Position numbers and translations under genes: made by a program
Notes under the pieces: model-generated
What the model was told of the DNA's origin: nothing
Seen by the model: the letters and a program-made list of their open reading frames with translations, nothing else
The model's database searches: none
Assembly: GCA_036488875.1 (NCBI GenBank)
Contig: DASXGW010000013.1
Coordinates: 355,281-419,280 of the forward strand
DNA: 64,000 nucleotides
Direction of reading: 5' to 3'
Origin: Candidatus Baltobacteraceae bacterium
GTDB taxonomy: Bacteria; Vulcanimicrobiota; Vulcanimicrobiia; Vulcanimicrobiales; Vulcanimicrobiaceae
Part shown: positions 13,844 to 24,528 of the stretch, in pieces
How the letters are laid out: the number at the start of each line of letters is the position of its first letter
Position numbering within the stretch: the stretch's first letter is position 1

Positions 13844-16819
13844 GTGATCGCTTTCGTACTCGCCGCAACGCTGTGGTCGAATCTCGCGAGCCCCGTTTTC
13901 GTGCGCGTCGACGTGCGTGATTTACCGCCCACCGTCGAAGCCGTCGCGCAAGACGAGATCGGGTTCATGTGGATCGCGACGCAAGGCGGATTAGCGCGTT
14001 ACGACGGCTACCGCTTTCGCGTGTTCGCGCCGAATCCAAGCGATCCCAAAGCGTTGCCCGACGGATATTTGCTAACGCTGCTGGCCGACGGCCCCGGACT
14101 TTGGATCGGAACCGAATCGAGCGGATTGGTGCGGTTCGACGAAGCGTCGGAGACCTTCCGCACGTGGCGCTCGGTAACGGCGGGGACTGCGGGTCCGCGC
14201 AGCGCTACGGTGCTCGCGCTGGCAAAGGGCCGTAACGGCATGCTTTGGGTCGGCGGTGACGGAGGCGTGGACCGTTTCGATCCGCGTACGGGAACGTTTT
14301 CGCACGTCGCGTTCTCGGGGCTTAGGCCGCAGCCGCGCGTTCGCGGAATCGCCATCGACCGCGACGGCGTGGTGTGGGCAGCGACCAGCGAAGGGTTGTT
14401 CTTCGGTAACGCGCGCGGCTTTGCGCGATTTCCAATCGGCGCCGCGCCGCCGGCATTTTCTGCGGCGTACATCGATGCGGCGGGTACGTTATGGCTCGGA
14501 TCGCACAACGCGGTCTATCTCGTCGACGCGTCGCGACGTCACGTCGAGCGTATCGACGCCGCCTCCGGCGATGCCGCGCTTACACCCGGTTGGCAGCGGT
14601 CGTTCATCGAGGTGAAGCCCGGCGAAATGTGGATCGGCTCGGACTCCGGCATCTCGATCGTCGATTCCGCAACGCGCGCGATCCGGCGCATCGCGGCAGA
14701 CCGCGATTCGAGCGGCGGTCTCACCGAAGGACAGACCGTCGGCTTTTTGCGCGACCGTTCCGGCCTGATTTGGATCGCAAACGCCGCCGGCGATTTGTTG
14801 TGGCACAATCCCAATACGACCGGTATCTACGAGCTTTCGAAAAACCGTCCGGGCATCAGTCTGGGCGATCAAGACGTGATTTCCTTGGCAGCCTTCGGCG
14901 GAAAGTTATGGCAGGGCGGTTTTAAGGGAGCGATTATGTCGCTCGATCCCAAGTCGGGGACGATCGCACGCTACCAACTGCCGAATCAGCCGATCGTTCT
15001 CCGGCTGCGCCCCGCAAGCGACGGTACGCTTTGGATCGGAACGCTGCAAGGTTTGTGTGCCCTTCGCGCGCACGCGACCGCCGCAACCTGTCCGGCGGGA
15101 CCGAAGATCGCGGCGAACGCCCGCATTACGGCGATCGCGTCGTCGCCGCGCCATCTCTGGCTCGGCACGGAAGCCGGAATAGTAGAAGAAGACACCGCAA
15201 GCAAAGCGGTTCGCGTGTTTCGTCACTCGGCGTCGCTCGATACGTTATCGAACGACCGCGTGACGTCGCTGCACTTCGATCGGCGCGGCCGGCTATGGGC
15301 CGGCACGGCCAACGGTCTCGACCGCATCGATCCGCTGACGGGACGCGTCGTTCGCTATACGTTCGATCCGCACGATCCCGATTCGGTCGGTCCCGGTACG
15401 ATCGAAACGATTCTCGAGGATCGCCGGGGCCGCATCTGGGCCGGAGCGGTCGGCGGTCCGCTCAACGTCCTGCAAGAACGGCAGAACGGAACGGTCACCG
15501 TGAAGCATCTCGGTCGCGCCGACGGTTTGCCCAACGAGAACGTCGACGGTCTGGCGCAGAGTCCGTCCGGCCGGATTTGGGCCAGCACGGATCAACGGAT
15601 GGCCGCGATCGACCCGCGAACGCTGCGCGCTCGAACGTTCGGGTTGGCCGACGGCACCTCGGATTACGGCTACTGGGGCGGCGGTTTCGCGCAATCGGAA
15701 GACGGAACGATGTTCTTTGCCGGCGGCGACGGCGTGACGGTGATCGCGCCGCGCGCGGCTTCTCCGTGGAACTACGTGCCGCCGGTCGTCCTGACCGCAT
15801 TGAAGGCCGGCGGTCGCGATTTGGGTTCGTACGCGGCCAACGCCGGCACGACGATCGATCTGGCGGCGCAACATCACGACTTCACCGCGGAGTTCGCCGC
15901 GCTCGATTATTCCGGACCGCAAGATCTGCATTACGGCTATCGTCTCGATGGGTACGATCGCGATTGGATCGCTGCCGATTCGGAGCACCGTTCGGCAACC
16001 TATACGAACTTGCCGCCGGGCAGCTACACGCTCGAGGTTCGCGGGACGAACCGGCTGGGCGTGTGGAGCGGGGGTTCGCTTTTGCTGCACGTGCGCGCCA
16101 TCGCGGCTTGGTACGAATCGTGGTGGTTTCGCCTCCTCGTTGCGCTGCTCGTTCTCGGCACGATGCTCTTGGCGCTAAAGCGTCGAACTTCCGTACTGGA
16201 GCGGCGCCAGCGCGAACTCGAGGCGACCGTTCGCGATCGAACCGCCGAACTGTCGCAAGCCAACCGTGCGCTCGAGGAAATGAGCCTCACCGATCCGTTG
16301 ACGGGATTGCGCAACCGCCGCTTCCTCGCACAAAACATCGAGAGCGAGATCGCGCTCGCGCGGCGCCAGCCCAACGACCTCGTCTTTTTCGTCATCGACG
16401 TCGATCATTTCAAGCAGGTCAACGACGAGCACGGTCATCGCGCCGGCGACGAGGTCCTCGTGCAGGTCCGCGAGCGCTTGGAAGAAGTGTTTCGCGAAAG
16501 CGACTTCCTGGTGCGCTGGGGCGGAGAAGAGTTCTTGGCCGTTACGCGCGGCATGCGCCGCGAGGATGCGGGCGAAATGGCGCAGCGCGTTCTGCGCGCC
16601 ATTGAGGACCGTGCGTTTACGCTCGGAGACGGCACGCAGTTACGGAAAACCGTCTCGATCGGCGTTGCCGCCTATCCGCTCGATCCGGGCAAACCGGAGG
16701 CGTCTACGTGGTGGCAGGTCATCGAGTGTGCCGACGCGGCGCTCTACGAAGCAAAAGAGGCGGGTCGCAACGCGTGGCGCCTAAGCTCGGTACTCTTTGT
16801 CGGGCTCCGCGAAGAGTGA
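13844..16819 (+). CDS. Two-component-regulator-like propeller / Y_Y_Y / GGDEF diguanylate cyclase
   Basis: 991-residue membrane sensor that should make cyclic di-GMP. A signal or anchor at the N-terminus is followed by about 14 Reg_prop blades (recurring I-G-x-M-W-I-A-T-x-G-G-L-x-R-Y-D; LWIGTESSGLVRFD; IWAGAVGG), a Y_Y_Y beta-sandwich (about 690-755, YRLDGYDRDW and NLPPGSYTLEVRGTN), one membrane helix (WWFRLLVALLVLGTML), a short coiled coil and a GGDEF domain. The active site is GGEEF (893-897). An intact inhibitory site R-E-S-D (884-887) lies exactly five residues before it, so product inhibition is expected. This periplasmic architecture normally ends in a histidine kinase; here it ends in a cyclase. 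GTG start. The last 39 bp overlap the convergent serine hydrolase. Confidence 0.9.
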   Translation: MIAFVLAATLWSNLASPVFVRVDVRDLPPTVEAVAQDEIGFMWIATQGGLARYDGYRFRVFAPNPSDPKALPDGYLLTLLADGPGLWIGTESSGLVRFDEASETFRTWRSVTAGTAGPRSATVLALAKGRNGMLWVGGDGGVDRFDPRTGTFSHVAFSGLRPQPRVRGIAIDRDGVVWAATSEGLFFGNARGFARFPIGAAPPAFSAAYIDAAGTLWLGSHNAVYLVDASRRHVERIDAASGDAALTPGWQRSFIEVKPGEMWIGSDSGISIVDSATRAIRRIAADRDSSGGLTEGQTVGFLRDRSGLIWIANAAGDLLWHNPNTTGIYELSKNRPGISLGDQDVISLAAFGGKLWQGGFKGAIMSLDPKSGTIARYQLPNQPIVLRLRPASDGTLWIGTLQGLCALRAHATAATCPAGPKIAANARITAIASSPRHLWLGTEAGIVEEDTASKAVRVFRHSASLDTLSNDRVTSLHFDRRGRLWAGTANGLDRIDPLTGRVVRYTFDPHDPDSVGPGTIETILEDRRGRIWAGAVGGPLNVLQERQNGTVTVKHLGRADGLPNENVDGLAQSPSGRIWASTDQRMAAIDPRTLRARTFGLADGTSDYGYWGGGFAQSEDGTMFFAGGDGVTVIAPRAASPWNYVPPVVLTALKAGGRDLGSYAANAGTTIDLAAQHHDFTAEFAALDYSGPQDLHYGYRLDGYDRDWIAADSEHRSATYTNLPPGSYTLEVRGTNRLGVWSGGSLLLHVRAIAAWYESWWFRLLVALLVLGTMLLALKRRTSVLERRQRELEATVRDRTAELSQANRALEEMSLTDPLTGLRNRRFLAQNIESEIALARRQPNDLVFFVIDVDHFKQVNDEHGHRAGDEVLVQVRERLEEVFRESDFLVRWGGEEFLAVTRGMRREDAGEMAQRVLRAIEDRAFTLGDGTQLRKTVSIGVAAYPLDPGKPEASTWWQVIECADAALYEAKEAGRNAWRLSSVLFVGLREE

Positions 16820-18198: not shown

Positions 18199-20838
18199 TT
18201 AAGCGAATAACGCTTTTCGCTGATGCTCGAGCTCGACGGCGACGCCCATCGCGCGCGTGCTCTCCGTCGCGTAGGCATCGACGAGTTCGGCCATCTGCGA
18301 ATAGTCGCCCGACATGGCGTGCGAACGCTGCGATTCGGCTTGCGCCGCTTCGAACGCGTCGCCGAGCGTGCGCGACGCGGAAAACGCAAACGTTTCGATG
18401 CGGCCGAACGCTTCTTGCGCAGCGCGCGCTTGGCGCGAGCTGTGCTCGGCTTTCGAGACGCCGGACTCGATCGCGACGGCAGCCTGTTTTCCGCGCTGTT
18501 CGAGATCGGTGAGAACCATGCGAATCTCTTTGGTCGAAGCCTTGGTCTTTTCGGCGAGATTGCGGACCTCGCCAGCAACGACGTTGAAGCCTTTACCGTA
18601 GTCGCCGGCGCGCGCGGCTTCGATCGCGGCGTTGAGCGCGAGCAGGTTCGTCTTGTCGGAGACCGTGCGCACCAGCGCGATGATCTCGACGATCTGCTTC
18701 ATCGAACCGGCGAACTGATCGAGCGCCTTGCGGCTCTGCACGGCCATCGACGAAAGCGTCTCGATCGTCGAGATGAGCTGGTCGACCGTACCGCGCATCG
18801 TCTCTACCTGCGGCGCCACCGCCGTGAAGCGTCCGCTCAGCGTGGAAAACTCGCTAGATAGCGTCCGATTCGAATCGCTCAACCGTAGAGCGTGCTGGGC
18901 GAGGCCGCGCAGCCCCGCGATTTGCGTGCGGGCTTGCGCCGAAATGTTCTCGCCGGTACTGCGCACGGCGCGAACCGATTCGTCGATCGACGTCACGATG
19001 TCGTCGATCGTGAAGCTTTGATGCGAGTGCGAAGTCATCGCCGTTTTCGGATGCCAGGCCGATAGATTGCGCGAGACCAGCAAACGGAAGACGTCGGCTC
19101 CAAAGAGCGGCTCCATGCGTTCCCAGACAAAACGCGCCGCGTGGACGAACTCGTCGTGTTCTTCGGGCGCCAGGTCGTGAATCTGCAGGTACTTGCGCAG
19201 CTCCGCAATTGCGTGCAGCTCGTCCTCGGCGGCGATGCGCCGGTGGACTGCGGTCGCCTCGGCAAACGCGGCCTCTAAGATCTCGCGATCCTCGCTGCTC
19301 AGCGCGTGAATTCGCTCGACGTTAGCCAGGACGATTTGCGTGTTGTAGGCGTGCGCGGTGAGCGAGAGATGGCTCTGCACCTCGTGCAAACGGGCGCCGA
19401 GAATGTTCGGCAAGGGGTTTTCCTGCGCGTCGACTTCGTGATTGGCCAGCGCCGCACGGAGCTGCGTGAAGGGAATGACCTTCGGCGACGCGCCGAGTGC
19501 GTGCATCAACGCCAGGTAGACGACGGAGTCTTGAATGCGAACGCGCATGCGCTTGACGTCGTGCGGGCGCGCGATCGTCCGGAGCGAGTTGGTGAAGTGC
19601 CGCATCCCGTTTTCGAAGTACGCCATGCCCGTTAAGCCGAACGAACCGAACGATTGCAGCACGTGTTTGCCCAGCGGTCCGTCGAGAATCGCATGCGCCT
19701 CGCGCAGGTTGTCGAACGCAAACGGCATGTCAAAAAGCTGCGCGAGCGGCAGCAGAGCGCCCGCCACGAACGTGGTGACGCTGATCATGTCCAGCTCGCC
19801 CGAACGTACGCGCAGCAGCGCTTCGAACTCGGTTCCGCCGGTAAACGGAATCTCGAGCTCGAGCTGGAGTCGCCCGGCGGAAAGCTCCGCCACGCGTTTG
19901 GCGACGTGCTGCCACGCGCGCGACGGAGGATATCCCGGCGGCAGCAAAGTCGCCACTTTCAACGACGTGCGCTCGGATTTGGCCACGGTTCGCGCGCGCG
20001 AAATGTAGGCGATCTCGGCGCCGTAATACGATAGACGCTGAGTCGCAAACGCCGATTCGAGCGCCTGACGCCCCTGATGGGCGGCGGTGCCGGCAAAACC
20101 GTCGGTTTCGCGGCGCATCTGCCCGGCCAAGGCGCTGTGCTCGCGCCCCGCGACCACGGCGCGGTCGATTGCCACGGAAAGATCCGCGGCGAGCTCGGCG
20201 ATCTCACCGAGCGACGAGTGCGCCGCGTCCGCGAGCGGAGCGGATTCGGCCGAGCGCTGGGCGTTCGCGCGCACCGCGTGAATCGTCGCTTCGGCTTCGC
20301 GCTGCACGTCGCCGACGAGATGCTTGATCGTCGTGGTCGATTCGCTGGTCGTCTTCGCCAAGCGTCCGACCTCGCCGGCGACGACAGCGAAACCAAGCCC
20401 GTGCGTTCCCGCACGCGCGGCTTCGATCGCGGCGTTGAGCGCCAAGAGCTGCGTTTCGTCCGAAACCTCTTCGACGAAATCGGTCATGCGCCCGATCTCG
20501 CTCATCAGTCGACCGAAGTCGTCCATGGCGGCCGCGGTCGCCGCCGAAAGTTCGGCGAGCTGCTGAACCGACGTCAGCAGCGTGCCGACGACCTCGAACG
20601 AGTTGCCGAGGTCCTCGGCCGCGCTGCGCGCTTGCGTTTGCGCGGCCCCCAGTCGGTCGGCCGTCTCTTGCGATTGCTTGGCGAGGATTCCCGCGCTCTC
20701 GGAGAGCGCGACCATGAGCGTCGTTTGCTCCTGCGCCGTGGCGGCGATGCCTTCCGACGTGGTGCGCACGGCGTCGACCGCCGCCGAGATGCTGGCGTTG
20801 AACTTGTCGAAGCCTTCGTCTCGTCGCGTCTCGATCAT
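18199..20838 (-). CDS. Cytoplasmic chemoreceptor with two MCP signalling domains flanking a DctP/TRAP solute-binding domain
   Basis: 879 residues, no signal peptide and no membrane segment, so apparently soluble. Residues 1-280 form a helical MCP signalling domain whose hairpin tip is [17 protein letters not shown] then [12 protein letters not shown] (128-161). Residues about 292-590 are a TRAP-type DctP solute-binding domain: [10 protein letters not shown], then [15 protein letters not shown] (406-420), [20 protein letters not shown] (431-450, with the conserved ligand-carboxylate Arg region) and [11 protein letters not shown] (469-479). Residues 605-870 form a second MCP domain with tip [20 protein letters not shown] (731-750). 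ATG 20838 overlaps the stop of the PAP2-like gene (ATGA), so it is co-translated. A DctP domain inside a cytosolic receptor would sense a cytoplasmic carboxylate; that is inference. No che genes lie nearby. The frame is open 105 codons further upstream, but that stretch is the PAP2 gene read in another frame. Confidence 0.9.
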
Positions 20839-21479
20839 AACGTCATCATCGTGCGCACGTGGAAGATGTAGAAGAAGAGCGTCGTCGATACGCCGCCCAG
20901 CACGGCCCCGGCGACCACCTGTGCCAGCGTGTGGGCCTTTAGGTAGACGCGCGCCCAGCAGACCATCGGAACCAGCACCAGAAACGGCAGCGTTTGCCGT
21001 CCGTAGAGCAGCGTGAGCGCGACCAGCGGCGCCGTGATTCCGAGGGCGTGCGTGCTGATCTTCCAGTAGCGCGTGATGTATCCAACCACGAGCGTCGCCG
21101 CAAAGTAGCCGAGCATGGTCGCGATCAACACGCGCGGCGCGTGCACGAGCCACAACACTCCGGCTCCGGTCAAATAGAAAGCGACGAAGGCGGTGAAGAC
21201 GGTCTCGCGCTCCGCGCGCACCGACATGTCGAGATCCGAGATGCGGTCGGTCGCGTACAGCCAGAAGACGTAGAGCATCGGACCGATCGACGTGAAGAAC
21301 GTCGAGACGAATAACAATCGCCAGAAGTCAACGGTATCGCGCGCCGTCGCGTGCGACAAAATGACGTACAACGCCAGCGCCGTCAAGAACGGGTTGAAGA
21401 TCGTCGAAAGGATCTTTGCGAGATCGCGCCATACCCGCCGCTGTTTGAGAGGAACGACCGTTTGGTTGGGTTCCAACAC
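20835..21479 (-). CDS. PAP2-like integral membrane protein, degenerate phosphatase motifs
   Basis: 214 residues with about six hydrophobic helices. The C-terminal part resembles PAP2/lipid phosphatases: ISTHALG in the place of PSGH, and [16 protein letters not shown] in the place of SRxxxxxHxxxD-xxAG. The Arg and His of motif 3 remain, but the final Asp is Gln and motif 2 has lost Pro-Ser-Gly. A lipid or undecaprenyl-phosphate phosphatase activity is therefore uncertain; it may be a divergent acceptor or an inactive relative. It is the first gene of a two-gene unit whose second member is the double-MCP receptor (4 bp overlap). Divergent from secG. Confidence 0.62.
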
Positions 21480-24144: not shown

Positions 24145-24528
24145 TTAGGCTTTCTTCTTGCGTCCGCCCTTTTTCTTACGTCCGCCCTTCTTGCGCCCGC
24201 CCTTTTTGGCTGCGCCTTTCTTGCGTCCGCCCTTTTTCTTGCGACCGCCGGCAGCTTTTTTACGTCCGCCCTTTTTCTTGCGTCCGCCCTTTTTGGCTGC
24301 GCCTTTCTTGCGTCCGGCTTTCTTGCGTCCGGCTTTCTTGCGTCCGGCCTTCTTACGTCCAGCGGCCTTCTTACGTCCGCCGGCAGCCTTCTTGCGACCG
24401 CCCTTGCGCGCTGTCTTCTTACGTCCGCCCGCAGCGGCTTTCTTACGGCCACCGGCTTTGCGGCGCTTGCGGCGAGGCTTCTTTTCTTCGGCCATCATCC
24501 CGCCGTTCATCATGGTATCGGAGTCCAT
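24145..24528 (-). CDS. Lysine/arginine/glycine-repeat nucleoid protein (histone H1-like)
   Basis: 127 residues, almost all Lys, Arg, Gly and Ala after a 15-residue non-basic start (MDSDTMMNGGMMAEE). The tail is built from short repeats: GGRKK, KAGRKK (three in tandem), GAAKKGGRKK (twice) and GGRKKKGGRKK. Such disordered basic proteins (H1-like Hc1/Hc2, or C-terminal tails of actinobacterial HupB) bind and compact DNA without sequence preference. A strong ribosome site (GGAGGA) precedes ATG 24528. The repeat DNA (CGTCCGCCCTTTTTCTTG units) is nearly identical between copies, so length variation by slippage is likely. It is divergent from topA, which may matter for coordinated control of DNA topology. 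No folded domain is present. Confidence 0.8.
   Translation of the reverse strand: MDSDTMMNGGMMAEEKKPRRKRRKAGGRKKAAAGGRKKTARKGGRKKAAGGRKKAAGRKKAGRKKAGRKKAGRKKGAAKKGGRKKKGGRKKAAGGRKKKGGRKKGAAKKGGRKKGGRKKKGGRKKKA

Follow-up and report, generated by a model that had tools for sequence, protein, structure and literature searches.

The receptor gene lies on the minus strand of a window of 64,000 nucleotides, the whole stretch of DNA that was analyzed, and translation of positions 18199-20838 gave a single 879-residue frame with no internal stops (Table 1). Pfam identified MCPsignal (PF00015) in two stretches (combined E 2.1e-56) that flank one complete DctP domain, which spans residues 298-575 (E 1.5e-58), and NCBIfam TIGR00787 scored 194.6 bits (cut-off, 175). 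Together with the fold matches described below, these data bear out the description in an earlier note on this DNA of two MCP signaling regions with a DctP domain between them in one 879-residue frame. A hydrophobicity scan of the entire chain identified no membrane helix or signal peptide, since the most hydrophobic 19-mer sits within the DctP fold, and the protein is thus soluble, as had been claimed. The upstream gene, named PAP2-like from its sequence, adjoins the receptor gene in some relatives only. Gene order around the receptor is partly conserved among relatives, and as the other neighbors also vary, no functional partner was assigned.

Table 1. Features of the receptor locus, in coordinates of the window (aa, receptor residues).
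Feature	Position	Strand	Basis and remarks
PAP2-like phosphatase gene, upstream	20835..21479	minus	ORF list; 4-bp overlap (ATGA) with receptor start; PAP2 name read from sequence
MA-DctP-MA chemoreceptor gene	18199..20838	minus	879 aa + stop, ATG at 20838; translation, Pfam, NCBIfam, 23 full-length genes
N-terminal MA coiled-coil hairpin (aa 8-281)	19996..20817	minus	AlphaFold helices, PF00015, heptad period 3.5, MCP fold match
Possible methylation-like site ATAQEQTTL (aa 33-41), N-terminal MA only	20716..20742	minus	Match to a relaxed consensus; conserved across 23 genomes
N-terminal hairpin tip (aa 118-172)	20323..20487	minus	Q130/E130, L148, G158 replace canonical N, R, R; 23 genomes, other MCPs
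DctP (SBP family 7) domain (aa 292-590)	19069..19965	minus	PF03480 E 1.5e-58; 4p47 fold match TM 0.89, 1.8 Å
Putative ligand-pocket residues E337, R413, R434, F457, N474	19417..19830	minus	Alignment to 4p47 D76/R152/R173/Y196/N213
Variable linker, DctP to C-terminal MA (aa 591-610)	19009..19068	minus	Poorly conserved, high dN, pLDDT < 50 at 600-608
C-terminal MA coiled-coil hairpin (aa 611-878)	18205..19008	minus	Pfam best stretch 703-852, AlphaFold helix, PDB sequence matches
C-terminal hairpin tip (aa 719-773)	18520..18684	minus	Canonical sequence

The full-chain AlphaFold model (pTM 0.57), a check that the earlier note had proposed, recovered a hairpin, a DctP fold and a hairpin, with helices at residues 8-142 and 148-281, the DctP fold at 292-590 and a second helical hairpin at 611-878; the linker was disordered at approximately 600-608. 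All four coiled-coil arms, of ~125-135 residues each, had periodicity peaks at exactly 3.5 residues. Taken separately, the N-terminal and C-terminal MA domains (N-MA and C-MA) each matched solved MCP structures in the PDB by sequence, and N-MA modelled alone gave a fold match to solved MCP cytoplasmic domains. The modelled DctP part matched solved TRAP solute-binding proteins, with the best geometry obtained for 4p47 (1.8 Å, TM 0.89).

The Eremiobacterota are a phylum known mostly from metagenomes. Our architecture search covered 149 genomes of this phylum (Vulcanimicrobiota), and the MA-DctP-MA order was intact in 23 of these, the host included, with two more copies broken by contig ends (G069 and G070). 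The 25 carriers are all Candidatus Eremiobacterota (now Vulcanimicrobiota) metagenome-assembled genomes (MAGs) from at least 11 genera. An assembly chimera or a frameshift, named in the earlier note as what would overturn the finding, was ruled out because the same domain order recurs in the full-length genes of 23 separate genomes and in the two fragmentary copies. Receptor identity among relatives lay between 55% and 87%, indels were very rare across ~880 residues, and dN/dS values of 0.09-0.16 for the whole gene and ~0.02-0.04 for the hairpin tips indicate that the gene is under strong purifying selection. Outside the Eremiobacterota, a genome scan with two DctP peptide patterns, by which divergent fusions could be missed, found lone DctP proteins only, mostly with visible export signals. 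No relative of the receptor was identified among viral contigs, and in plasmids no region reached 80% coverage of the query.

DctP-type nutrient-binding domains are normally located outside the inner membrane. The host genome contains no second DctP domain and no DctM permease, and nearly all of the other carriers outside genus g37 likewise lack both. DctM was also absent from 19 of the 20 other carriers tested outside genus g37, the remaining one having a single marginal match. The receptor has neither the export nor the pairing with a DctM permease that define a TRAP component, and the lack of these partners in the host and in nearly all of the non-g37 carriers indicates that its DctP domain does not serve a transporter.

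The putative ligand pocket of the domain is nevertheless retained. In 4P47 numbering, the carboxylate is typically bound by Arg152, Arg173 and Asn213; position 196 is aromatic, and the residue at position 76, which is acidic, touches a ligand hydroxyl (PMC11668362). The Arg/Arg/Asn carboxylate triad is kept in the receptor (R413, R434 and N474), and all five of the known TRAP carboxylate/hydroxyl pocket positions are invariant in 20 relatives. Pocket conservation of this sort gives a ligand class only, and our best guess for the class is a hydroxy- or sugar-acid, because pantoate, erythronate and sugar acids account for most of the ligands of the solved DctP relatives, many of them co-purified (PMC11668362). 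The proposal that the receptor senses an organic acid in the cytoplasm appears sound on these sequence comparisons, since the chain is soluble, its DctP domain looks ligand-competent and CheA and CheW are encoded in the same genome.

A search for the chemotaxis partners, which had also been suggested in the earlier note, identified one CheA and one single-domain CheW in the host genome, clustered with CheY, CheC and the FlhA flagellar export gene. These were the only two CheW-domain matches, and no DosM-type triple-CheW protein was identified in that genome. A CheB-CheR fusion, further CheR and three other MCP genes are also encoded. CheA was detected in 22 of the 25 receptor carriers, the three without it being draft MAGs, and in genus g5, where no CheA was found among the genomes listed, the receptor was absent as well. 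Taken together, these findings make coupling of the receptor to the flagellar CheA the natural reading. There were two FlhA/FHIPEP homologues in the host genome (G000:C10:60612-62555, L119, and G000:C11:50497-52437, L120), one in the che-flagellar cluster and the other elsewhere, and the second homologue suggests a second flagellar-type export system. One CheA match, at G118:C1:1310199-1310429 in a single-contig genome, falls in a frame that is interrupted by a single TAG.

The two hairpin tips differ from one another. The C-terminal tip carries the canonical GKGF.VVA.EVR.LA, whereas in the N-terminal tip the substitutions Q/E130, L148 and G158 are fixed where the surveyed single-MA receptors have N, R and R, at positions that we take to be Tsr N376, R394 and R404. 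The N-terminal tip is almost invariant across the 23 genomes. It has 87% invariant columns at residues 121-165 and a dN/dS of ~0.04; no other region of the protein is as invariant, and this tip is therefore not decaying. A literature search on the role of the tip residues returned nothing usable. It is likely that the two receptor ends divide the labor between them. The same phylum has double-MA receptors without DctP (L203, 328-2985, minus strand; L205, 735-3152, minus strand; and L204, frame from 698, plus strand). As L204 resembles the N-terminal tip in its GLGF...EIGRLA and L203 also carries GLGF, tips of this type may be characteristic of double-ended receptors.

In a tree of 110 DctP domains, the cytoplasmic DctP sensors all grouped in a single clade (support 0.993), and the exported DctPs of the phylum lay outside it. 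The sensor clade comprises three architectures: MA-DctP (~600 residues, e.g., L034), in which DctP follows a single MA and has its C-terminus free; MA-DctP-MA; and MarR-DctP (L112, 1078-2505, minus strand; L113, 91-1557, plus strand; L114, 1368-2915, minus strand; and L157), in which a MarR DNA-binding domain replaces the MA. The MarR-DctP fusions, in which the DNA-binding domain precedes a cytoplasmic DctP, are apparently carboxylate-sensing transcription regulators. In the MA tree, the N-MA and C-MA of the receptor were sisters (support 0.885), and as their grouping with MA-DctP was weak (0.118), the tree evidence for duplication of the C-MA is the one 0.885 node. The two MAs also aligned without gaps at an offset of 601, their arms being identical in length, which points to an internal duplication, and outside the tip the N-MA/C-MA alignment scores of the arms exceeded those of heptad-preserving shuffles. 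The simplest account would be that a binding protein was first internalized and fused to the N-MA, and that the C-MA then arose via internal duplication of the N-MA, after which the tips diverged.

The explanation that we consider probable is that the protein is a cytoplasmic hydroxy-acid chemoreceptor that feeds the flagellar Che pathway through two non-equivalent signaling ends. Within this explanation we infer the ligand, the direction of signaling, dimerization and the geometry of the two ends. A TRAP-type binding protein would have lost its export signal and gained an N-terminal MA hairpin, giving MA-DctP, after which the MA would have been duplicated to the C-terminus to give MA-DctP-MA. 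The DctP cleft would bind an intracellular acid, presumably of the hydroxy- or sugar-acid class, and closure of the cleft would shift both of the coiled-coil hairpins that leave the ends of DctP, altering CheA activity and consequently flagellar switching. The C-terminal tip retains the canonical CheA/CheW-coupling sequence, while the N-terminal tip, with its fixed substitutions, probably has a modified role in the array.

Two alternatives concern what the individual domains do. The DctP could have lost small-ligand binding and serve, between the hairpins, as no more than a rigid spacer or a module for protein interactions, as the TRAP transporter is no longer in the genome and exported solute-binding proteins elsewhere work by docking onto receptors (PMC9602780). 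We regard this as improbable because all five ligand-contact positions are invariant and the pocket motifs are also kept in the MA-DctP and MarR-DctP sensors. We are less dismissive, though still doubtful, of the idea that the N-MA lacks CheA/CheW coupling and is a dimerization or scaffolding rod, the C-terminal tip doing all of the signaling. That the N-terminal tip departs from the surveyed single-MA receptors at three positions where these are canonical would fit such a rod, but the 87% invariance and low dN/dS of this tip would not. In addition, the N-terminal MA is the sole signaling domain in the MA-DctP relatives, and a tip resembling GLGF...EIGRLA recurs in the double-MA receptor L204.

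The remaining alternative concerns geometry. The equal-length hairpins of one chain could lie side by side as a pseudo-dimeric four-helix bundle, which would produce a folded-back, single-ended receptor with one DctP, and the substitutions in the N-terminal tip would then be asymmetric adjustments inside the bundle. The exactly equal length of the MA arms (offset 601, no gaps) is what such a bundle needs, and the linker between DctP and C-MA is flexible; equal length, however, is also predicted by duplication by itself. The N-MA had a mean pLDDT of 90.3 when modelled alone by AlphaFold versus 82.3 in the full chain and so gave no sign of needing the C-MA as a partner, although this difference is not decisive. 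As a full explanation the folded-back receptor seems to us possible at best, and for the geometry itself we lean slightly toward an extended, DosM-like double-ended rod.

DosM of Vibrio cholerae (VC1403) has two signaling domains and forms an extended rod that joins two CheA/CheW layers (PMC7534058). Among DosM homologues, 98% are without any sensory domain, and DosM systems use triple-CheW proteins and F9 clusters (PMC9321776). The receptor resembles DosM in being a soluble MCP with two MA domains in one chain. It differs in having a DctP sensor between its ends, where most DosM homologues are sensorless, and in that its genome encodes a single ordinary CheW and a single CheA in a flagellar cluster rather than an F9, triple-CheW system. 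The earlier note had considered two tips in one MCP as unusual and the domain order as undescribed. The second point stood, as full-text literature searches that combined DctP with MCPsignal or chemoreceptors turned up no account of the MA-DctP-MA order. The two-tip layout, by contrast, is already known from DosM and the other double-MA receptors of the phylum and is thus not new on its own.

Soluble single-MA chemoreceptors usually carry PAS-like or similar sensor domains. Like the receptor, they are cytoplasmic MCPs without a membrane anchor, and they are Che-coupled, as the receptor is predicted to be; each has one tip, however, and DctP is not described as their sensor in the literature found. 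The TRAP solute-binding proteins (4P47, IseP and DctPAm) share the fold and the carboxylate-binding residues of the receptor, but they are exported and paired with DctQM, whereas the DctP of the receptor is cytoplasmic, fused to hairpins and encoded in a genome without DctM. That domains of solute-binding protein families serve as sensor parts of other signaling proteins is known in general (PMC9602780). What is new here is an apparently undescribed double-signaling soluble chemoreceptor with a central DctP sensor that looks competent for ligand. The conservation of this layout across many related soil bacteria argues that it represents a real kind of internal organic-acid sensor.

The receptor provides a natural test of how one central ligand domain can drive two signaling hairpins at once, and of whether a single receptor can link baseplates in a ligand-controlled manner; most published DosM receptors have no sensor and so cannot do this. 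We also tentatively speculate that binding of a carboxylate in the central DctP changes both ends at once and that the non-identical tips dock different arrays or array positions, such that an internal metabolite would control the coupling of two signaling layers. More widely, under this speculation a TRAP binding protein would have become, in the Eremiobacterota, a cytoplasmic sensor module that could be used repeatedly (in MA-DctP, MA-DctP-MA and MarR-DctP) and that outlived its transporter. The three regulator types document a periplasmic binding-protein fold that was brought into the cytoplasm once and then reused.

Two other frames in the window were noted. The first (24145-24528, minus strand) encodes 127 residues that are nearly all GGRKKA-like repeats and resembles a histone-H1-like basic tail protein. 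The second (13844-16819, plus strand; 991 residues), read by eye, contains propeller-like repeats and a membrane segment and ends in a GGDEF-like region, and is likely a membrane diguanylate cyclase sensor.
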